A stretch of DNA of 64,000 nucleotides, taken from NCBI RefSeq assembly GCF_003627815.1, contig NZ_CP032698.1:7254001-7318000 (forward strand). The letters are read 5' to 3'. Positions 12,756 to 24,643 of this stretch are shown in pieces. Every line of letters starts with the position of its first letter. Positions within the stretch are counted from its first letter, which is position 1. The stretch comes from Streptomyces hundungensis (GTDB taxonomy: Bacteria > Actinomycetota > Actinomycetes > Streptomycetales > Streptomycetaceae). Made by a program: the position numbers and the translations under genes. The notes under the pieces were generated by a model that saw only the letters and a program-made list of their open reading frames with translations, was not told the DNA's origin and searched no databases.

Positions 12756-12909
12756 GTACGGTGAAAGGAACTTTTCCCGTAGGGGAGTTGGGGGTGTGGC
12801 ATCATAGCCGCGTCGTTCTCCCGGAGTGGGGAAGCCGAATCCGGGGAACCAGTCGAATCGGCATTGCAACGGCCTGCTTCTCCAGCGTGGAAGGCGTGGA
12901 AGGCTAAGG

Positions 12910-13485
12910 ATGAAGGTGTCTGGCTCTGCGTTACCGTCGCCGGAGGACCGTCGGCTCAGGCGCCGTCTCAAAAAGGTCCGTCACACGTGTGAGGCGCTGC
13001 TCGCGGAGTGGGGCATGGAGCACGGCTGCGGCATCGATGAACTGCACCGCTACCTCAGCGCGCAGAACCGGCGGCCGATCCATCTGATTCCGATGCCGTT
13101 CCCGGAGCGCCATCTCTTCGGGCTGTGGCTGAAACTCGACGATTTCGACATCATCGCCTACGAGAAGGCCGCCTCCGCGTCACACAAAGAACACATCATC
13201 GCCCATGAGCTCTCCCATATCGCCTTCGCACACCGGGGCTCCGTGGAATTCGATCACACTGATACGAGTCAGTTGTTCACGAATGCCGAACCGGCGGCGG
13301 TGCGGAGCATGTTGATGCGTTCTCGCTACAGCGACGACGAGGAACAAGAAGCCGAGACGATGGCCTCGCTGATCCTGGCCCGCGCCACCAAGCGCTGGCT
13401 GGAACCCGCCTGGGGGGTTCCCGAGGAGGCCGCGGAGATCGTCGCCCGCATCGAGAACGGTGTCGGCCACCCGGACCCGTCATGA
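12910..13485 (+). CDS. ImmA/IrrE-type zinc metallopeptidase-like protein
   Basis: 191 residues. A basic helical N-terminus (about 12-35) precedes a small gluzincin domain with the zinc motif HELSH at about 99-103; a candidate third ligand is among the acidic residues of EEQEAETMASLIL downstream, as in ImmA/IrrE. Such proteases often cleave a partner XRE-type repressor. No XRE gene lies beside it, so the target is unknown. The ATG at 12910 follows AAGG and removes an upstream in-frame stretch with no conservation. Its last codons overlap the next gene by four bases (ATGA), so it is the first gene of a three-gene operon. Confidence 0.8.
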   Translation: MKVSGSALPSPEDRRLRRRLKKVRHTCEALLAEWGMEHGCGIDELHRYLSAQNRRPIHLIPMPFPERHLFGLWLKLDDFDIIAYEKAASASHKEHIIAHELSHIAFAHRGSVEFDHTDTSQLFTNAEPAAVRSMLMRSRYSDDEEQEAETMASLILARATKRWLEPAWGVPEEAAEIVARIENGVGHPDPS

Positions 13486-14696
13486 ACACGGTCAACGGAA
13501 TCCTCACCTGGGTCTGCGCGCTCGGCGGAATCGCCGCCTTCGGCTACCGGCTGCCGGACCTGCTGCGCAGACGACAGGACGTCGCCCTGTGGGCGCTGTG
13601 CGTCTACTTCCTCTGTTCCGGCATCAGCTTCCTCGTCGACCTGGACGCGCTGCGGGTGCACATCTCCGCCCTGTTCGGCCTGCCCAACATCACCTCGCTG
13701 ATCGTCCAGGTCGCCGTCGTCGTGCTCACCGCGGCCCAGCAGGTCGTCCTCGTGTACTGGTCGTCGCCGCCCGAGGAGGCCCGCCGCCGGGCGCGCCGCC
13801 GGGTGCTGTTCTTCGGCGCCGCCCTGTGCGTCCTGGTGGTGGCCTCCCTCGCCGTCAGCCCGGTCGCCAGCGCCAAAACGGCCACCTCCACCATCCTGCT
13901 CAGCATCCAGGACGGCCGATACGCCCTGTACATGTCGTTCTACCTCGTCATCTGCGGAGTGGGGCAGTTCGAGACGGTCCGGCTCTCGCTGCGCTTCACC
14001 AAGATGGCCAACCGGCAGTGGCTCAAGGTCGGCATGCGCACGGTGACCGTCGGCGCGAGCCTGATCCTGGTCTACTGCGTCACCCGCAGCATCCAGATCG
14101 CCGGCACCCGGCTGCACTACGACGCCTCGGCCCTCGACCCCATCCAGTGGTCGTGCGGCACCATCGGAGCCCTGCTCCAGATCACCGGCTGGACCATCCC
14201 GTCCTGGGGCATCCACCTCACCCGCGCCGCCGGCTGGCTGCGCAGCTACCGCTCCTATCTACGGCTGCGGCCCCTGTGGTGGGCGCTGTACGAGGCCTCG
14301 CCGGACATCGCGCTCGACCCGCCCCGCTCCTGGGCGCGCGACCTCGTCCCGCCGCGCGACCCCCACTACAGCCTCTACCGGCGGGTCATCGAGATACGCG
14401 ACGGCCAGTTGATGCTCCGCACCTCGCTCTCGCTCGCCGACTTCTCCCGCGTGGCCCGCTCGCTCGGCCTGCCCGAGGACCCGACCTCGCCCCTCGGCGA
14501 GGCCCTCCAGGTGCGGGCCGTCCTCAACCGACCGGCCGAGGAGCGGGACGAACTGGCCGACACCGCCGACATCCCGGCGAGGCCGCCGTACGACGACTTC
14601 CGCGACGAGGTGGAGTGGCTGACCCAGGTGGCGTCCTCGTTCACCGCGCTCACCCAGGGCCGTGCGATGCGCGCGCCCGACAGAATCCCGTCATGA
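13482..14696 (+). CDS. MAB_1171c-type multi-pass membrane protein
   Basis: 404 residues. The first about 240 residues contain roughly seven membrane helices (starting ILTWVCALGGIAAFGYRLPDLL). The C-terminal 160 residues are soluble, with LRPLWWALYEASPDIAL and YRRVIEIRDGQLMLR as landmarks. This matches the actinobacterial family annotated as MAB_1171c putative transporter, for which no function is proven. The family recurs next to ImmA-like proteases in Streptomyces, as here, overlapping the genes on both sides by four bases. A signalling receptor is as plausible as a transporter. Confidence 0.78.
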   Translation: MNTVNGILTWVCALGGIAAFGYRLPDLLRRRQDVALWALCVYFLCSGISFLVDLDALRVHISALFGLPNITSLIVQVAVVVLTAAQQVVLVYWSSPPEEARRRARRRVLFFGAALCVLVVASLAVSPVASAKTATSTILLSIQDGRYALYMSFYLVICGVGQFETVRLSLRFTKMANRQWLKVGMRTVTVGASLILVYCVTRSIQIAGTRLHYDASALDPIQWSCGTIGALLQITGWTIPSWGIHLTRAAGWLRSYRSYLRLRPLWWALYEASPDIALDPPRSWARDLVPPRDPHYSLYRRVIEIRDGQLMLRTSLSLADFSRVARSLGLPEDPTSPLGEALQVRAVLNRPAEERDELADTADIPARPPYDDFRDEVEWLTQVASSFTALTQGRAMRAPDRIPS

Positions 14697-16900: not shown

Positions 16901-19747
16901 TCAGCGCAGTTGGCGGCGGACCAGTTCGTGCAGGCGGCCGTGGGGGTCGGCGAGGAGCTCGGCGGGCGGGCCCTGCTGGACGATGCGGCCCTCGGACATG
17001 ACGATCACCCGGTCCGCGTCCAGGACGGTGGAGAGGCGGTGGGCGATCACGAAACGGGTCGCCCTCAGGGCCCGGGTGCTCTCGATCACCGTGCGCTGGG
17101 TCTCGTTGTCCAGGGCGCTGGTCGCCTCGTCGAGGAAGAGGACGCGCGGTCGCCGCACCAGCGCCTGGGCGATCATCAGACGCTGGCGCTGACCCCCCGA
17201 GATCGCGCCGCCACCGGAGATCATCGTGTGCAGGCCCATCGGCATCCGCTTGATGTCCTCGGCGAGACCCGCCATCGCGACCGCCTCCCACACCTCCTCC
17301 TGGCTGTACGCCTCGGCCCCGCAGACGCAGTCCAGGATCGACCCCGTGACCGGCTGTGCGTTCTGGAGCACGACCCCGCACTGGCGGCGCACGGCCGCCC
17401 GGTCGAGGGCCGTCAGGTCCTGGCCGTCGTACAGGACGCTTCCCGAGACCGGGTCGTCGAAGCCGATGAGCAGCCTCAGCAGGGTCGATTTGCCGCAGCC
17501 GCTGGGCCCGACGACCGCCACGAACTCGCCGGGCGCCACCTTCAGGGACACGTTGTCCAGGACCAGCGGACCGTCGTCGCCGTAGCGGAACGACACACCC
17601 CGCGCCTCGATCTCCCCGGTGAGTTCACCGGGCTGCGGGCCGGCCCCGCGGACCTCGGGCGCCTCGTCGAGGACCGGCTTGATCTGCTCGAACATGGGCA
17701 GCACCGCCGCGGCCGAGACGAACGCGCCGGTCAGTTGGGTGACGGCGGTGAGCAGCATCGTCACGGCCGTGTTGAAGGTCAGGAAGGCGCTCGCCGACAG
17801 CGACCCGCGGGCCGGCCCGGCGAGCAGAACGAACATGAGGAGCGAACAGAGCGGCAGATAGACGGAGTTGAGGACCGTGGTCAGGTTCTTGATCCGGCCC
17901 GCCCGCTGCTGCAACTCCCGGCTGCGGGCGAACTCGCCCGCCCACGCCCCGTACGCGAAGCTCTCCGCCGCGGCCACCCGCAGCTTGGGCAGGCCGCGCA
18001 GGGTCTGGAACGCCTGGTTGTTCAGCTTGTTGCCCAGTTCGACCAGGCGGCGCTGCCAGCGCAGCTCTGCCATGCCGAGGGTCAGGAACACGGCGGCGAT
18101 GACGATCAACAGGGCCACCGTCACCAGCGCCAGGGGCACGCTGAAGCACAGCAGGAGGACGAGGTTCATCACGGCGACCGTGCCCGCCTGCACGACGACC
18201 GGTCCGATGCCCGTCAGGACCCGCCGGATCGCGCTCACGCCCATCGCCGCACTGGCCAGTTCACCGGTGGAGCGCTCGGCGAAGAACCGGGTCGGCAGCC
18301 TCAAAAGCCGGTCCCATACGGCGGGTTGAAGGGTGCTCTCGATGCGTCCTTCCATCCGCAGCACGGTGAGGTTCTGGAGCAGCGCGAACGCGGCGGACAC
18401 GATGCCGCTCACCACCACGGCCAGCGAGACCTGCACGATGAGGCTGCTCTGGGCGCGCGGAACGTACACGCCGAGGACCTGTCCGGTGGCGATCGGCACC
18501 AGCGCGCCCAGCGCCACCGTCACCAGGGCCGCGAGCAGCAGCCGGTGTATGTCGGCGCGGGTGCCGCGCAGGCTGAACCGGAGCAGCCCCCGCTTGCCCA
18601 GTGGCCGGTCGGGCAGCGGCCGGTAGAACATGACGGCGCGCCCCTCGAACTCCTCGGCGTTGTCGGCGTCGACACGGGTGCGGCGACCGGAGAGTGGATG
18701 CACCGCCTCGTACCCGCCGCGCCGCCACAGCAGGGCGACGGGGGTGCCGCTCACCCGCCGCCCGACCAGCGGCCCCGCGTCCTCGCGCCACCAGCGCCCG
18801 GCCAGCCGAACGGGCCGCGTCCGGATGCGGGAGGCCACCGCGACCCGCTCCACCGGATCGACGCGGTCGCCGATCGCCCCGCCGAGCGCCCGGTCGGCGA
18901 GGGTGATCCCGGCCGCGTCCGCGACCAGCCGACAGGCCGCGTACGTCGCGTCGTCGGTGGGGCCCGGGGTGCGCGCGGGCGCCTTGCGGGTGCGGCCGAT
19001 GGAGGTGAGCAGCGCCCGGTCGGCCTCCTCGCGGACGGCCTCACCCGCTCTGATCCCGGCCGCCGTACGGTTTTCATGGGCCCGCTCCACGCGTTCGATC
19101 CAGCGGTCGAGGGCCGAGAGCAGCCGGTACTGCTGGTTGACCATGCCCTGCCACAGCGCCCCGTCGACGAGCAGGTCGCCGGCGGCCTCGGCGCTGAACG
19201 CCGCGCCGTACTGCACACTGCCCGGCGACACCGGAAGCCACAGGATGTCGTCGTCCGCCACCGACTCGTCGAGTGCGGTCCGGCCGTCCAACGGGGCCTC
19301 GAACAGGACCCTTTGGCCGCGCCCGATGCCCAGCGAGAAGGCGTGCTCCAGCAGGCTGAGGGTCGCGTCCCCGGCGTCGTACCGGCTCGGGTGCGCGGCT
19401 GCGTACCCGTCATACGGTTCGCGGTACAGCTCGCGCAGGGGAATGCGGCGCAGTACGCACTCCCGCAGGGGCCGCCCGACCAGCGTGTGCCGTGGGCCCT
19501 CGACGGGGCCGAGCAGCAGGGTGCCCGGCTCCAGCCGGCCCAGGAAGTGCCAGTGCCCCTGCTCCGCCGCGTCCACCGCGAACAGATCCAGGGCTCCGCC
19601 CACCACGAGCCACAGCACCTGGGGCCCCTCCAGGGAGAAGCCGCCGGAACCGGTGCGGTCGACGGGCTGCCCGAGTCCGCCGAGCGCGCCGACGACGGCG
19701 TCCCGCCCCGAGGCGTCCTGGGCGGCCGCAGCGTGTACGAACGTCAC
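16901..19747 (-). CDS. NHLM-type peptide exporter ABC permease/ATPase (second subunit)
   Basis: 948 residues. The first about 380 residues have no peptidase; they form the cyclic-nucleotide-binding-like and linker region typical of the NHLM second ABC subunit. About 390-680 carry the six-helix membrane domain and about 700-945 the ATPase, with Walker A GPSGCGKST, signature ISGGQRQR and Walker B RVLFLDEATSALD. It pairs with the C39-containing subunit encoded directly upstream to give a heterodimeric exporter for double-glycine leader peptides. The GTG start follows the C39 gene's TGA without a gap. It is the last gene of the export operon. Confidence 0.85.
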   Translation of the reverse strand: MTFVHAAAAQDASGRDAVVGALGGLGQPVDRTGSGGFSLEGPQVLWLVVGGALDLFAVDAAEQGHWHFLGRLEPGTLLLGPVEGPRHTLVGRPLRECVLRRIPLRELYREPYDGYAAAHPSRYDAGDATLSLLEHAFSLGIGRGQRVLFEAPLDGRTALDESVADDDILWLPVSPGSVQYGAAFSAEAAGDLLVDGALWQGMVNQQYRLLSALDRWIERVERAHENRTAAGIRAGEAVREEADRALLTSIGRTRKAPARTPGPTDDATYAACRLVADAAGITLADRALGGAIGDRVDPVERVAVASRIRTRPVRLAGRWWREDAGPLVGRRVSGTPVALLWRRGGYEAVHPLSGRRTRVDADNAEEFEGRAVMFYRPLPDRPLGKRGLLRFSLRGTRADIHRLLLAALVTVALGALVPIATGQVLGVYVPRAQSSLIVQVSLAVVVSGIVSAAFALLQNLTVLRMEGRIESTLQPAVWDRLLRLPTRFFAERSTGELASAAMGVSAIRRVLTGIGPVVVQAGTVAVMNLVLLLCFSVPLALVTVALLIVIAAVFLTLGMAELRWQRRLVELGNKLNNQAFQTLRGLPKLRVAAAESFAYGAWAGEFARSRELQQRAGRIKNLTTVLNSVYLPLCSLLMFVLLAGPARGSLSASAFLTFNTAVTMLLTAVTQLTGAFVSAAAVLPMFEQIKPVLDEAPEVRGAGPQPGELTGEIEARGVSFRYGDDGPLVLDNVSLKVAPGEFVAVVGPSGCGKSTLLRLLIGFDDPVSGSVLYDGQDLTALDRAAVRRQCGVVLQNAQPVTGSILDCVCGAEAYSQEEVWEAVAMAGLAEDIKRMPMGLHTMISGGGAISGGQRQRLMIAQALVRRPRVLFLDEATSALDNETQRTVIESTRALRATRFVIAHRLSTVLDADRVIVMSEGRIVQQGPPAELLADPHGRLHELVRRQLR

Positions 19748-22036
19748 TCAGTGCTCCCCGACCAGCTCGGCGTAGGCCCCCCGGGCGGCCAGGAGCTCCT
19801 CGTGGCGGCCGCGCTCCACGACGGTCCCGTGGTCGAGGACCACGATCTCGTCGCTGTCGCGGACGGTGCTCAGCCGGTGGGCGATGACGACGCACGCGCA
19901 GCCGCGACGGCGCAGATTGTCGATGATGAGGTGCTCGGTCTCGGCGTCCAGGGCGCTGGTGACCTCGTCAAGCACCAGGATGCTGGGCCGGCGCACCAGC
20001 GCCCGGGCGATCTCCAGACGCTGGCGCTGACCGCCGGAGAAGTTGCGCCCGTCCTGCTCGACCCGGCCGTGGATGCCGCCCGGCCGGCGCGCGACGACCT
20101 CGTACAGGGCCGCGTCCTTGAGGGCGGCCACCACCGCGTCGTCCGGGATCGAGGGGTCCCACAGCGCGACGTTGTCCCGCACCGTGCCCTCGAAGAGGAA
20201 GACGTCCTGGTCGACGAAGGACACGGACGCGGCGAGGGCGCCGCGCGGGATGTCCTCCAGGCGCTGCCCGTCGATGCGGATGGTGCCCTCCCAGGGCGCG
20301 TACAGACCCGAGATGAGCCGGGACACCGTCGACTTGCCGCTCCCCGAACCGCCCACCAGAGCCACCTGTTGGCCCGGCCCGACCGTGAGCGAGAACCCCG
20401 ACAGGAGCGGCTTGTCGAGCGGGCTGTAGCCGAAGGTGATGTCGTCGAGGCTCACATGGCCCTTGAGGCGTCGGGTGCTCGCGGGCGGCTCGGGGCGGCT
20501 GTGCAGGGCGTCCACGGGGAAGTTCTCGACGTCCTTGAGGCGGGCCACATCGGCCGCGAAGTCCTGGATCCGGCCCGCGACGCCGTTCAGCCGGGTCACC
20601 GGGGCCGTGAAGCGGGTCACCAGGGCCTGGAAGGCGACGAGCAGACCGATGGAGATGTGCCCCTCCACCGCTCGCAGCCCGCCGATCCACAGGATGAGCG
20701 CGCTGTTGAGGGTGGCGAGCGCGGGGGCGACCACACCGAGCCAGGCACTGGGCACCCCGAGCCGCTGCTGCTCCTCCAGCGTGGTGGCGTGCTGCCCCGC
20801 CCAGCGGCGGAAGTACCCGTTCTCACCGCCGGTGGCCTTCAGGGTCTCGATCAACTGGAGCCCCGTGTACGCGGTGTTGGTGAGCCGTGCGCTGTCGGCG
20901 CGCAACTTCTGCGTACGGGTCGCCCGCAGCCGGACCACGATCCGCATCGCCACCACGTCCAGCAGGGCGATGCCCACCCCGATGACGGTGAGCTGGGGAT
21001 CGTAGCTCCACAGCAGGGCGGCGTAGAGCAGCACGACGACACCGTCCACGGCCGCCGCCGTCAGGTCGCGGGCCAGCGTCTCGGCCACCGCGTCGTTGGA
21101 CTGGAGCCGCTGGACGAGGTCGGCGGGGCTGCGCTGCGCGAAGAACGTCACCGGCAGCCGGAGCAGATGCCGGAAGAAGCGGGCGCTGCTCAGCGTGGAG
21201 GAGATGACGCGACCGCGCAGCAGGTTCGCCTGTTGGAGCCAGGTCAACACGACGGTGAGCGCCACCATGGTGCCCATCGCCGCGAACAGCACGCCCAGCA
21301 ACGAGGTTTGATGACCCATCAGGAACAGGTCGATGTAGGTGCGGCTCAGTGCGGGCAGCGCGGCGCCGACGGCGACGAGCAGCAGGCTCGCGAGCAGCGA
21401 GGCCAGCATCGTGCCCGTGGTGCCGCGCAGTCGTGCGGGCAGCGCGGCCAGCACACCGGGCTTGCGGCCGCCGGGCCGGAAGTCGGGGCCGGGTTCCAGG
21501 ACCAGGACGACGCCCGTGAAGCTGGTGTCGAAGTCCTCCGACGTTACGAACCGGCGCCCCTTGTCCGGGTCGTTGATGTGTACGCCCCGCCGGCCGAGGC
21601 GGCGCCCCATGCCGTCGTACACCACGTAGTGGTTGAACTCCCAGAACAGGATGGCGGGCGCCTGGACCTCGGCGAGCGCGGCCGGTTCCATCTGCATGCC
21701 CTTGGCCGTGAGCCCGTAACTGCGCGCCGCCTTCAGGACGTTGCTCGCTCGTGAGCCGTCCCGCGAGACGCCGCACGCGATGCGCAGCTCCTCCAGCGGG
21801 ACATGGCGGCCGTGGTGGGCGAGGACCATGGCGAGGCAGGCGGCGCCGCACTCCAGGGCCTCCATCTGGAGGATGGTGGGGCTGTGCACGGCCTTGGCCC
21901 GCCGGGTCCTCGGCGTCCGGCGGGCCCGTGACGCCCGGCGCCTGCCGCCGGTCGGCTCGGCCGGTCGGCGGCGGCCGTGGCCGGGGGGCGGGAGCTGGGA
22001 GGTGGAGGTGCGCGGTGCGGTCACGGGAGCAGCCAA
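19748..22036 (-). CDS. NHLM-type exporter with C39 peptidase, permease and ATPase
   Basis: 762 residues. After a basic N-terminus of about 45 residues comes the C39 cysteine peptidase: catalytic Cys in LECGAACLAMVL, His in FNHYVVYDG and Asp in HINDPDKGRR. Six membrane helices follow, and then the ATPase with Walker A GGSGSGKST, signature FSGGQRQR and LVLDEVTSALD. This protein cuts the leader after Gly-Gly and exports the core peptide. Its start overlaps the adaptor gene by 16 bases. The only double-glycine substrate visible nearby is the peptide at 22920-23165. Confidence 0.9.
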   Translation of the reverse strand: MAAPVTAPRTSTSQLPPPGHGRRRPAEPTGGRRRASRARRTPRTRRAKAVHSPTILQMEALECGAACLAMVLAHHGRHVPLEELRIACGVSRDGSRASNVLKAARSYGLTAKGMQMEPAALAEVQAPAILFWEFNHYVVYDGMGRRLGRRGVHINDPDKGRRFVTSEDFDTSFTGVVLVLEPGPDFRPGGRKPGVLAALPARLRGTTGTMLASLLASLLLVAVGAALPALSRTYIDLFLMGHQTSLLGVLFAAMGTMVALTVVLTWLQQANLLRGRVISSTLSSARFFRHLLRLPVTFFAQRSPADLVQRLQSNDAVAETLARDLTAAAVDGVVVLLYAALLWSYDPQLTVIGVGIALLDVVAMRIVVRLRATRTQKLRADSARLTNTAYTGLQLIETLKATGGENGYFRRWAGQHATTLEEQQRLGVPSAWLGVVAPALATLNSALILWIGGLRAVEGHISIGLLVAFQALVTRFTAPVTRLNGVAGRIQDFAADVARLKDVENFPVDALHSRPEPPASTRRLKGHVSLDDITFGYSPLDKPLLSGFSLTVGPGQQVALVGGSGSGKSTVSRLISGLYAPWEGTIRIDGQRLEDIPRGALAASVSFVDQDVFLFEGTVRDNVALWDPSIPDDAVVAALKDAALYEVVARRPGGIHGRVEQDGRNFSGGQRQRLEIARALVRRPSILVLDEVTSALDAETEHLIIDNLRRRGCACVVIAHRLSTVRDSDEIVVLDHGTVVERGRHEELLAARGAYAELVGEH

Positions 22037-22827
22037 TCGAGGGGGCGCCGGTCGGCCAGGTGGACGGTGCCGGTGGCCGGGGTCATGGAGTCGACCGCGT
22101 AGGGCGGGCCTTGTCCCGACGACCAGCGGTAGCCGGACTTCGTGGCCTGCGTGCGGTCGAGGCGCACCAGCACCGCCACCGGCATGCCGTCCCGCGAGAA
22201 CTGTTCGGCGAGCTGGTTGTCGCCGAGGAACGCGGCGATCTGGCGAGGCGTCTGCACCGTCCGGCCGACCGCGGCCACCGTGCCGCGCAGCACCCCGTAC
22301 CGCTCGGCCGGCACGGTCTGCACGGCGAGGTCGACGGGCGCGCCCACGGGGACACCGGCGGCGCTGTCGCCCGGCACGTACAACATCACCACCAGGGGGT
22401 CGTCGGGGCCGCCCGTGCGCTCCACGCTCGCCACGCCCGCGCCGGTGGCGATGACCGAGCCGATGGTGGCGGAGAGACTGGTGAGACGGCCGGCGGCGAT
22501 CGCGCGCACGATCCGGTCGCCCTGGGGGGTGCGCACCTTGAGGAGCGGCGCGTTGGCCGCCAGGGTCGCGCCCTCCTGGGCGAACACCCCGGTGACCTGT
22601 CCCTCGACGGGACTCTGGAGGACGTAACTGCCCTGTGCGTGCGTGAGGATGCCGGGTGCGTCGATCGTGGAGGAAAGGGAGCCCGTCACGGCCCAGAAAG
22701 AAGCGGCGGCCATGACCAGAACGGTGACGAGAAGGACGAGTCGTCCCTGCGGGCGCGCGAAACGCACGGGCAGGTCGAGTTCTTCCGGCGACTGGAGTTT
22801 GGAAAGGGCCTGCTGACGAAACTGCAC
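22021..22827 (-). CDS. NHLM secretion system HlyD-like adaptor
   Basis: 268 residues. One N-terminal membrane helix (VLLVTVLVMAAASFWAVTG, about 30-48) is followed by a lipoyl-like half-motif (SPVEGQVTGVFAQEGATL) and a beta-barrel region. The long coiled coil of Gram-negative HlyD is missing, as is normal for NHLM adaptors in Gram-positives. It should link the two ABC proteins to the substrate at the outer face. The GTG start is preceded by GAAAGAG. A strong hairpin separates it from the precursor gene upstream. Confidence 0.8.
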   Translation of the reverse strand: MQFRQQALSKLQSPEELDLPVRFARPQGRLVLLVTVLVMAAASFWAVTGSLSSTIDAPGILTHAQGSYVLQSPVEGQVTGVFAQEGATLAANAPLLKVRTPQGDRIVRAIAAGRLTSLSATIGSVIATGAGVASVERTGGPDDPLVVMLYVPGDSAAGVPVGAPVDLAVQTVPAERYGVLRGTVAAVGRTVQTPRQIAAFLGDNQLAEQFSRDGMPVAVLVRLDRTQATKSGYRWSSGQGPPYAVDSMTPATGTVHLADRRPLDWLLP

Positions 22828-22879
22828 GGAACTCTTTCCCTATCCGCGAAACATTCGCAAACCGTTGGCCATCGGCAAT

Positions 22880-22909
22880 GAGCCCCGGAACCGAGTGGTT
22901 CCGGGGCTC
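22880..22909 (-). terminator. Perfect hairpin between the peptide gene and its exporter genes
   Basis: Arms of 13 bp (22880-22892 and 22897-22909) match perfectly around the 4-base loop GAGT. It begins eleven bases after the peptide gene's stop codon. Partial termination here would give far more peptide mRNA than exporter mRNA. Confidence 0.75.
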
Positions 22910-22919
22910 GCGCGCGATC

Positions 22920-23165
22920 TCAGAGACCGGCGACGAGACCGGTGGCCAGGCCCGTGACGGCGCCCGTGTTCACACCGGTGACCGAGCCGACCAGGCCGGT
23001 GACCGAGTTGACGATGCCCGAGACCGGCAGGACGGAGTCGGCGGTGCCGGTCACGTTGCCGAGCACGGTGCCCACGAGGCCGCCGGACACGTTGTCCAGG
23101 TCGGCGTCGGAGATCTCGAGGGTCTCGACCTGGGGAGCGTTGTTCATGGGAGTACTGCCTTTCAT
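22920..23165 (-). CDS. Double-glycine leader peptide, cysteine-free glycine-rich core (bacteriocin-like)
   Basis: 81 residues. The leader of 29 residues contains LEISDADLDNVSGG, the classic C39 recognition pattern (hydrophobic residues at -4, -7, -12 and a GG cut site). The predicted 52-residue core has no Cys, Lys or Arg and is built of VTG-type units: NVTGT, SVTGL, SVTGV, AVTGL and a final ATGLVAGL. With no cysteine it cannot form lanthionines or sactionine links, and no modification enzyme lies nearby, so an unmodified hydrophobic peptide with GxxxG-like packing is likely. The ATG at 23165 has AGGAAA seven bases upstream; the ATG at 23147 is possible. Confidence 0.8.
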   Translation of the reverse strand: MKGSTPMNNAPQVETLEISDADLDNVSGGLVGTVLGNVTGTADSVLPVSGIVNSVTGLVGSVTGVNTGAVTGLATGLVAGL

Positions 23166-23590
23166 GGGGACATTTCCTATCGGGAACACCTTGCCGGTGC
23201 TCCCGCAGTGGGCAGGATCAAAACACGCCGACGGCATTCACAGCCAATCGCCGCCGGGTGTCGTGGGCATTCCCCACCGCTTGAATTGCCGTCCCGTGCA
23301 GGCGCGTTCATAAGTTGGGGGCAGTTTCTTCACGAGCTTCACGAGTTGCATTCCTGAGGGTCCGTCAGCGCATTACTCAAGTGGGACACTCCCGCACCAA
23401 TGCCCCTCGGGCCGCCCTCGTGCCCGGGCGCGTTCATGGTCGCGGTGACGGGTCCGCGCACACGGTGTGCAGATTCTCGGAAGGAACCCTTCCGCTTGTC
23501 TCGGGGGCACGGAGCGGGCCCGGGCCGGACGCGAACCGGACCCGGACCCGGCGGGGAGCCCAGGCCCGCGCCCGGTGCGGATGACACGCG
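23166..23590. other. 425-bp intergenic region upstream of the peptide gene
   Basis: No gene is seen here. It must hold the peptide promoter on the minus strand. Two perfect head-to-tail 9-bp copies of CTTCACGAG lie at 23328-23336 and 23337-23345, a possible activator site. GC-rich inverted repeats near 23511-23575 follow the chitinase stop codon and may end that transcript. Confidence 0.5.
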
Positions 23591-24643
23591 TCAACGGCCT
23601 TGTAGCGCCCTGACGTTGTTGCCGAACGTCCAGTTCTTCGAGCCGTCCCAGTTGAGGGACCAGGTCATCAGGCCCTTGAGGGCGCCGCCATAGGCGTTCC
23701 ACGCCTGGGACACCTGATTGGTGGTCATATAGCCGCCCCCCGCGCCCGGCTGGGCCGGGAGCCCGGGGACCTGCTTGTCGTAAGGGACCTTGATCGTGGC
23801 GCCCTGGACGACGAGCCCCTTGTTGAGACAGGTGGTCTGCGCGGTGAATCCGGCGACGGTGCCGGCCTCGTAGGAGTCGCCGGAGCAGCCGTACATGCTG
23901 CCGTTGTAGTACTGCATGTTGAGCCACCACAGACGGCCGTTGTCCGCGTACTTCTTCACGATCGGCAGGTACGCGCCCCAGATCGAGCCGTACGTGACGC
24001 TGCCGCCGGTGACATAGGCGGTCTCGGGCGCCATCGTCAGACCGAAGGTGGACGGCATCCTGGCGAGCACGCCGTCGATGATGCGGATCAGATTGGCCTG
24101 GGAGGTCGAGAGGGTGGTGAGGGAGCCGCTGCCCACCAAGCCCGTCTCGATGTCGATGTCGATGCCGTCGAAGTTGTACCGCTGGAGGATCGGCACGATC
24201 GACGCCACGAAGCGGTCGGCCACCGCGCTCGAACTGAGGTCGATGCCGGCGGCGGCCCCGCCGATCGACAGGAGCAGGGTCTGGCCCGACGCCTTGGCCT
24301 GGCACATCTCGGCTGGGGTCGGCACCTTCACCGTCGAATCCATCCCCTCCTCCCACAGGGCCGTGCCGTCCGAACGGATCACGGGGAAGGCCGCGTTGAG
24401 GACGTTGTAGCCGTGGGCGCCGATGCGGGAATCGGTGATCGGGATCCAACCGAGCGGCGGATGCACGCCGTTGGACGCCCCGTCCCAGTTCTCCCAGTAC
24501 CCCTGGAGCACCTTGCCCGAGGGTCTCGACTTCACCGCGCAGGTGTCGGCCCCGGGCGCGCTCGGCGCCGCGCTCACCGGGACCTGCGTCGCGAGCGCGA
24601 GCACGAGCCCGGCTCCCAGCAGACGTAACGTACGACCGATCAT
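23591..24643 (-). CDS. Secreted GH18 chitinase
   Basis: 350 residues. A signal peptide ends near APSAPGAD. The GH18 barrel carries the catalytic motif FDGIDIDIETG (DxxDxDxE, glutamate as proton donor) and the SxGG motif LLLSIGG. MQYYN and the final tryptophan of MTWSLNWD mark substrate-binding strands. No chitin-binding or fibronectin domain is attached, so this is a single-domain enzyme resembling Streptomyces ChiC/ChiD-type catalytic domains. TAGGAG precedes the ATG by six bases. A 12-bp chi box about 105 bases upstream predicts chitin induction and glucose repression. Confidence 0.92.
   Translation of the reverse strand: MIGRTLRLLGAGLVLALATQVPVSAAPSAPGADTCAVKSRPSGKVLQGYWENWDGASNGVHPPLGWIPITDSRIGAHGYNVLNAAFPVIRSDGTALWEEGMDSTVKVPTPAEMCQAKASGQTLLLSIGGAAAGIDLSSSAVADRFVASIVPILQRYNFDGIDIDIETGLVGSGSLTTLSTSQANLIRIIDGVLARMPSTFGLTMAPETAYVTGGSVTYGSIWGAYLPIVKKYADNGRLWWLNMQYYNGSMYGCSGDSYEAGTVAGFTAQTTCLNKGLVVQGATIKVPYDKQVPGLPAQPGAGGGYMTTNQVSQAWNAYGGALKGLMTWSLNWDGSKNWTFGNNVRALQGR

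Follow-up and report, generated by a model that had tools for sequence, protein, structure and literature searches.

Most of the Streptomyces genomes surveyed here carry a cysteine-free hydrophobic peptide together with its own export genes, and we propose, at a probability of roughly one half, that this is an unmodified, exported, helix-forming peptide that would act at the hyphal envelope. Our starting point was a window of 64,000 nucleotides (bases 7254001–7318000 of the 8.39 Mb single-contig genome of Streptomyces hundungensis), in which an operon on the minus strand reads, in order, precursor, hlyD, a C39 peptidase-ABC gene (ABC1) and a second NHLM-type ABC gene (ABC2). An earlier note on this DNA had recognized these four parts and described a 52-residue core free of Cys, Lys and Arg; both statements are borne out by the profile matches and by a direct count.

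The peptide–exporter unit and its distribution

Among 392 Streptomyces genomes, a single-sequence search recovers the precursor in 248 and the ABC2 model is matched in 286; comparison of the genome lists by hand places both in 247 genomes, the exporter alone in 39, the precursor alone in one and neither in 105 (Fisher p 6e-61, relatedness uncorrected). Profile searches (E<=1e-3) uncover a diverged precursor (clade B) in 34 of the 39 exporter-only genomes; hence, together with the 247 direct finds, the precursor is carried by 281 of the 286 exporter-bearing genomes. In 13 tested genomes with neither component, the profile gave nothing better than E 0.0126. Gene order and strand, precursor–hlyD–ABC1–ABC2, are the same in all 41 loci compared (the window and 40 loci from 40 genomes), a figure conditional on a clade A precursor, as the 40 were chosen from precursor matches. 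The homologous precursors beside NHLM exporters, for which the earlier note had suggested searching, are thus found, and in a fixed arrangement. In clade B, an HlyD-like gene lies within 1.5 kb of the precursor in 29 of the 30 loci fetched, the miss being a genome without exporter (G317), with an orphan precursor containing one Cys and no exporter gene in the 19 kb examined. In other genera of the family, 42 of the 52 exporter genomes tested (from 53 with ABC2 over the cut-off, G426 being left out and matches below the cut-off excluded) yield a precursor at E<=0.01, and none of 15 tested genomes without exporter does; at 29 of the 30 loci fetched, an HlyD-like gene again stands beside it. Relatives of the precursor number 190 in a search of 5.8 billion proteins, and among the best 120 of these the named organisms are Streptomyces and the labels are either ‘type A2 lantipeptide’ (or lanthipeptide) or ‘hypothetical protein’.

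The precursor gene (22920–23147, minus strand) encodes 75 residues of the double-glycine type: a 23-residue leader (23079–23147) ending in ...EISDADLDNVSGG, and a 52-residue core (22923–23078) followed by the stop codon at 22920–22922. The leader, MNNAPQVETLEISDADLDNVSGG, matches the double-glycine consensus, in which hydrophobic residues occupy positions -12, -7 and -4, and the Gly-Gly pair is present in 40/40 aligned precursors. The start reads best as the ATG at 23147, where Met is found in 40/40 aligned sequences, that of the window included; the likely ribosome-binding site GAAAGG (23158–23163, minus strand) has purine-rich counterparts in the relatives, about 16–20 bases ahead of the start. 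The end given in the earlier note, 23165, corresponds to an in-frame upstream ATG with codons that overlap this likely ribosome-binding site. Seven relatives (P0016, P0023, P0033, P0091, P0093, P0108 and P0109) read ...HELHPQVET in place of MNSTPQVET, a variant resembling a one-base change in the run of C at the start of the leader, by sequencing error or slippage.

The leader of the precursor matches neither the NHLP nor the N11P model, an NCBIfam scan to E 1 yielding three other weak families only; a Pfam scan to E 1 gives just weak Gly-zipper and Romo1 matches and no chaplin-type match; and a PDB profile search with the precursors has no match to E 1. PADLOC likewise reports nothing for the precursor or HlyD, and for ABC1 three matches in the ATPase region.

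Among the export genes, the HlyD-family adaptor (22021–22827, minus strand; 268 aa, GTG start) scores 37.3 bits against PF13437 and 152.6 bits against TIGR03794, slightly below the cut-off of 156.2, the protein being 268 aa long and the model 421 positions. ABC1 (19748–22036, minus strand; 762 aa) is a C39 peptidase-permease-ATPase that passes TIGR03796 (1004.4 bits, cut-off 853.3) and matches Pfam Peptidase_C39 (PF03412) at 122.1 bits; its triad, C63, H136 and D156, is kept in 41/41 loci, and the closest solved counterpart of its C39 domain is 6mpz_A (143.8 bits). ABC2 (16901–19747, minus strand; 948 aa), a peptidase-free permease-ATPase, passes TIGR03797 (866.1 bits, cut-off 709.4), with the Walker Lys and Glu kept in 41/41 loci.

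Core composition, shape and the question of modification

The core of the window has four VTG triplets and a single Asp, with a calculated unmodified monoisotopic mass of 4733.61. Clade A cores consist of about 21% Val, 20% Gly, 15% Thr, 12% Leu and 12% Ala, and the cores are rich in Thr/Ser. No Cys occurs in four overlapping sets of 40, 21, 57 and 110 unique cores (the pattern used for counting captured 23 of the 30 loci in clade B and 71 of the 80 named ones), and 28 of the 30 clade B precursors, all from the 34 profile-found genomes, were viewed and are Cys-free by eye. Net charge ranges from -1 to -4 overall, being -2 or -3 in most clade A cores and 0 in 4 of 21 clade B cores; Arg appears in 10 of the 21 unique clade B cores.

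The earlier note saw the core as built from VTG units. The four triplets are there; a tandem repeat is not, for what recurs is a helical spacing, Gly pairs being over-represented 4, 7–8 and 11 residues apart. In clade A, the periodicity of hydrophobicity peaks at 100–110 degrees per residue, Gly pairs at i+4 (GxxxG) number 4.8 per core as against about 1.7 in shuffled cores, and hydrophobic pairs at i+2 number 0.8 as against 5.8. Taken together, these three features indicate a periodicity in the residue pattern that is helical rather than beta. Clade B behaves likewise but less markedly, and has a second, smaller peak at 145 degrees. The ratio of nonsynonymous to synonymous substitution rates (dN/dS, by Nei–Gojobori over 591 of 780 pairs, L070 excluded) is 0.79 for the core, 0.30 for the leader and 0.18–0.34 for the exporter genes; composition and spacing of the core are maintained despite this fast change in sequence.

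Turning to modification, the earlier note had remarked on the lack of a modification enzyme at the locus. The broader comparison agrees: no modification or immunity gene, LanM included, is recognized among the recurring neighbors of the 41 loci (open reading frames of at least 70 aa). At the level of genomes (E<=1e-5), LanC-like matches are absent from 9 of the 41, YcaO from 12 and SPASM from 22, and G107, with an intact unit, has no match to any of the three. Thus, none of these families is present in all 41 precursor genomes, further classes (glycosyltransferases, epimerases) not having been searched. Given the neighborhoods free of modification genes, the Cys-free cores and the want of any enzyme family common to all 41 genomes, an unmodified product is the simplest reading of the sequence data. 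Hence, of the distinct class of unmodified, neutral peptide that the earlier note had envisaged, the first attribute is supported; a cysteine-free peptide of this kind was already in print, and cores across the family are often charged.

The upstream block, satellite precursors and gene neighborhood

A regulatory block of fixed internal spacing (23183–23344, minus strand) is conserved upstream of the precursor, which it precedes in 41/41 Streptomyces primary loci. Its elements in the window, all on the minus strand, are two copies of GTGAAG (23337–23342 and 23328–23333), TGCAC (23296–23300), GATTGG (23244–23249) and TTTTGATCC (23215–23223). GTGAAG stands exactly 111 bases ahead of TTTGATCC in 39 of the 41 loci, and the remaining two deviate by a single base. 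TGCAC lies at -78 in 36 of 41, and likewise 36 of 41 have a site resembling GATTGG at -27, while the gap between block and start codon ranges from 72 to 172. Information content is 0.5–1.5 bits per base from -120 to +20, falling to 0.4–0.5 at the edges and 0.1–0.3 beyond, and the best 12-mer of the block occurs at <=2 mismatches in 41/41 loci as against at most 10 in one shuffled set. By a single scoring rule, the block is found at 0 of 356 random places and at 8 of 29 primary loci of other genera (29 of the 30 loci being scored). In a promoter reading, TG-C-TTTGAT is a predicted extended -10, TTGG falls near -35 and the direct repeat of GTGAAG would serve as a putative operator.

Three other interpretations of the block were set aside. 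As a small gene, the frame TGC-TTT-GAT is open in many loci, yet TTT is invariant in 41/41, which is odd for coding sequence given the codon usage of GC-rich Streptomyces; by eye, the window and L036, L050, L054 and L057 have stops in this frame at the GATTGG/GATTAG site or immediately beyond it. As a structured RNA, it lacks any consensus pair (30 of the 41 sequences compared), and Rfam has no match to E 1 in window positions 22800–23600. As a motif of a wide regulon in its own genome, it has one perfect match, and 8 sites at <=3 mismatches compare with 6 for the reversed control; a 2-mismatch site at 7798669 has no precursor in the 700 bases downstream.

Profile searches further disclose satellite precursors, in Streptomyces and other genera, that lie away from the exporter and combine the same leader with Gly-rich cores; those read are Cys-free, the exceptions being L257 and the G317 orphan with one Cys each. 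At 25 satellite loci, the stretch examined holds an HlyD-like gene in none and an ABC1-like match in two. Scoring of 22 of these 25 finds the block at five, all among the 11 from Streptomyces. This 5/11, against 0/356 random places, points to a Streptomyces regulon in which the satellites and the primary peptide would share one exporter. Orphan precursors such as L214–L227 and L246–L257 are scattered through Streptomycetaceae genomes, and the core of L224 is His-rich.

Between precursor and hlyD lies a hairpin, GAGCCCCGGAACC (22880–22909, minus strand), with a perfect 13-bp stem and a 4-nt loop. Folding of this gap in the window gives z -3.98, with 0 of 200 shuffles equally stable; in six loci folded, no more than one of 200 shuffles is as stable as the gap (z -2.9 to -4.7), and a perfect stem of at least 9 bp is present in 32 of the 41 loci. 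The hairpin is likely a partial terminator or processing site, which could permit the precursor to be made in excess over the exporter.

The surroundings of the unit are variable, no flanking family (open reading frames of at least 70 aa) occurring in more than 19 of the 41 loci. Five of eight recurring neighbors tested have a Pfam match, namely a Ppx/GppA phosphatase, an alpha-lytic-type protease, an MFS transporter, a SpoIIE-type phosphatase and a LuxR-type regulator; the other three may be spurious reading frames. The Ppx/GppA-type gene recurs downstream in 12 of 41 loci, a position like that of the exopolyphosphatase gene SCO0757 in S. coelicolor. The gene for the alpha-lytic-type serine protease, which runs divergently about 2 kb upstream of the precursor, is found in 18 of 41, its Pfam match coming from L072:11278–12684 alone; the enzyme could trim or degrade the peptide outside the cell. 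In the window, a GH18-type chitinase gene (23591–24643, minus strand) immediately precedes the precursor gene and is read in the same direction. We rejected it as a part of the system, as a close relative adjoins the precursor in only 2 of the 40 other loci; L045 and L046 have a 27%-identical chitinase 2–3 kb upstream of the precursor. Next after ABC2 on the same strand, 16222–16776 matches PF05506 (phospholipase C C-terminal domain) and has a hydrophobic C-terminus, with a counterpart in L034. Farther off, a weakly M78-like (IrrE-type) peptidase gene (12826–13485, plus strand) overlaps a putative transporter gene of the MAB_1171c family (DUF6545; 13482–14696, plus strand), a possible regulatory pair of which both members also occur in L035.

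Published counterparts, competing readings and implications

A probable counterpart of this operon in Streptomyces coelicolor, SCO0753–SCO0756, was described in 2019 as a Cys-free hydrophobic peptide beside a type I secretion operon, with the SCO0753 family said to be conserved in many Streptomyces and the exopolyphosphatase gene SCO0757 following (PMC6629963). We liken the two by gene order and description: in both, a Cys-free hydrophobic peptide precedes HlyD and two ABC genes (PMC6629963). With an activating mutation in the kinase SCO5282, which acts via the OmpR-type regulator SCO5283, SCO0753 stands 6.3 log2 above the kinase-regulator null and its exporter genes about 4.3 log2 up, these genes being nearly silent in the null (PMC6629963). 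SCO0753 is the most overexpressed gene in the dispersed-growth strain, and the authors suggest an effect on the hyphal surface (PMC6629963). Elsewhere, sco0756 is up in a ppm1 mutant (PMC5882110), SCO0753 is up in an aor1 deletion (PMC5733086), and SCO0756 is listed simply under ‘bacteriocin biosynthesis’, slightly lowered (PMC6414726). Thus, the peptide–exporter pair, the lack of Cys and the wide conservation are already in print for S. coelicolor. The text of PMC6629963 accessible to us deals with regulation and suggested function, and we found in it no family survey, block, satellites or enzyme-absence test; a literature search, with subscription papers mostly outside its coverage, likewise found none of these and no purified peptide. 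The genome survey, conserved order, fixed-spacing block, satellites, helical periodicity and enzyme-absence test are new here.

Comparison with other exporters sets the unit apart in several respects. The NHLM exporters described with NHLP/Nif11 precursors (Haft 2010, PMC2887384) belong to the same families, TIGR03794, TIGR03796 and TIGR03797; there the leaders are related to nitrile hydratase or Nif11 and modification enzymes are often encoded alongside, whereas the leader in the window is short. Cyanobacterial C39/HlyD bacteriocin clusters share the precursor, HlyD, C39-ABC and second ABC, with LanM named for some clusters only; in several groups they average about three or more diverse precursors, in contrast to the one conserved Cys-free family here (PMC3140520). 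The LahT/PCAT transporters (6mpz, 4ry2) have the same C39 Cys, with His and Asp shared as well in the case of 6mpz and a nearly full-length match in that of 4ry2; unlike the window's unit, they are single transporters with neither a second ABC protein nor HlyD. LahT serves lanthipeptides. Among the surface-active products of Streptomyces, SapB, the chaplins and the rodlins are likewise small and hydrophobic; SapB is a lanthipeptide, and chaplins and rodlins use Sec signals.

Briefly, we envisage the following course of events. The C39 domain is predicted to cut the 23-residue leader after Gly-Gly, and the 52-residue core would leave the cell through HlyD and the two NHLM-type ABC proteins. Probably unmodified, this core likely forms a helix and acts as a surface-active peptide on the hyphal envelope. 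The block, a natural candidate site for SCO5283, would be the target of an OmpR-type regulator of this kind. Satellite precursors with the same leader, some of them with the block, may be secreted in trans by the same exporter, and the result would be a regulon of related peptides and not a single product. In its fullest form, this picture has one NHLM exporter serving one widespread and several scattered unmodified peptides under common control, their glycine-zipper helices coating the hyphae as new morphogens beside SapB, the chaplins and the rodlins, which we put forward as a tentative and rather doubtful extension.

Of the surface, signaling and killing roles that the earlier note had left side by side, the surface role is favored on account of the ubiquity of the peptide, its acidic or neutral cores, the absence of a recognized immunity gene and the published expression data. 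The main rival is an unmodified class II-type bacteriocin whose helical, GxxxG-rich core enters competitor membranes, alone or with satellites as partner peptides. The double-glycine leader, the C39 exporter, the GxxxG excess in clade A and the ‘bacteriocin cluster’ label (PMC5733086, PMC6414726) would all fit it. Against this, no immunity-like gene is recognized near the unit in the 41 loci (a smaller or distant one could escape), the cores are acidic or neutral where class II bacteriocin cores are typically cationic, and near-ubiquity in a genus is, to our knowledge, unusual for a bacteriocin; we therefore regard killing as unlikely, if still a serious contender. A signal sensed by the producer's own hyphae might be expected from the relation of the C39 ABC exporter to ComA, the competence pheromone transporter, and from the dedicated conserved control block; with no receptor-like gene recognized among the recurring neighbors, and a core whose sequence changes quickly though its composition and period hold, an odd trait for a peptide that a receptor must recognize, this reading strikes us as very improbable. 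Another alternative, a ribosomally synthesized and post-translationally modified peptide (RiPP) whose Ser/Thr residues are acted on by a distant enzyme (LanM-like, YcaO or radical SAM) or an extracellular glycosyltransferase, draws on the NCBI name ‘type A2 lantipeptide’, the Thr/Ser-rich cores and LANC-like and YcaO matches in the window's own genome. As the counted cores have no Cys for lanthionine rings, no modification gene is recognized beside the unit and G107 keeps the unit without all three enzyme families, we hold it improbable.

Several observations weigh against the envelope peptide that we prefer. The own genome of the window has four LANC-like and three YcaO matches and none to SPASM; about 1.46 Mb separates the nearest of these matches from the window. 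Those to LANC-like (G000:C1 near 317162, 782240, 1047612 and 2149818) fall in open frames of about 970–1110 aa far from the window, and a brief look identified no substrates for the four proteins. The helical signal of the window's core is modest, 133 of 5000 shuffles reaching the observed moment; relatedness inflates the periodicity z-scores of the family, and the AlphaFold2 model draws helices at a predicted local distance difference test score (pLDDT) of only 55.7. Fast evolution of the core relative to the exporter genes would suit a bacteriocin too. As for the regulon, the block is scored in 14 of 28 clade B loci and not in the other 14, and in 0 of 11 satellites outside Streptomyces; no satellite at E<=0.01 is found in the window's own genome, and 10 of the 52 tested exporter genomes of other genera give no precursor match. 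Finally, the published work does not demonstrate that dispersed growth depends on SCO0753, and the kinase-regulator double deletion sediments like the wild type (PMC6629963).

RiPP-like clusters are among the commonest cluster types of Streptomyces, reported for 200 of 213 species (PMC10327506), and we suspect that the present operon may account for part of them. Should its product be an unmodified surface peptide, the name ‘lantipeptide’, in wide use for it, would be wrong, and a co-regulated component of the hyphal surface that has stayed hidden would become testable in existing strains, with the fixed block offering a direct handle on both the regulator and the set of satellite peptides.

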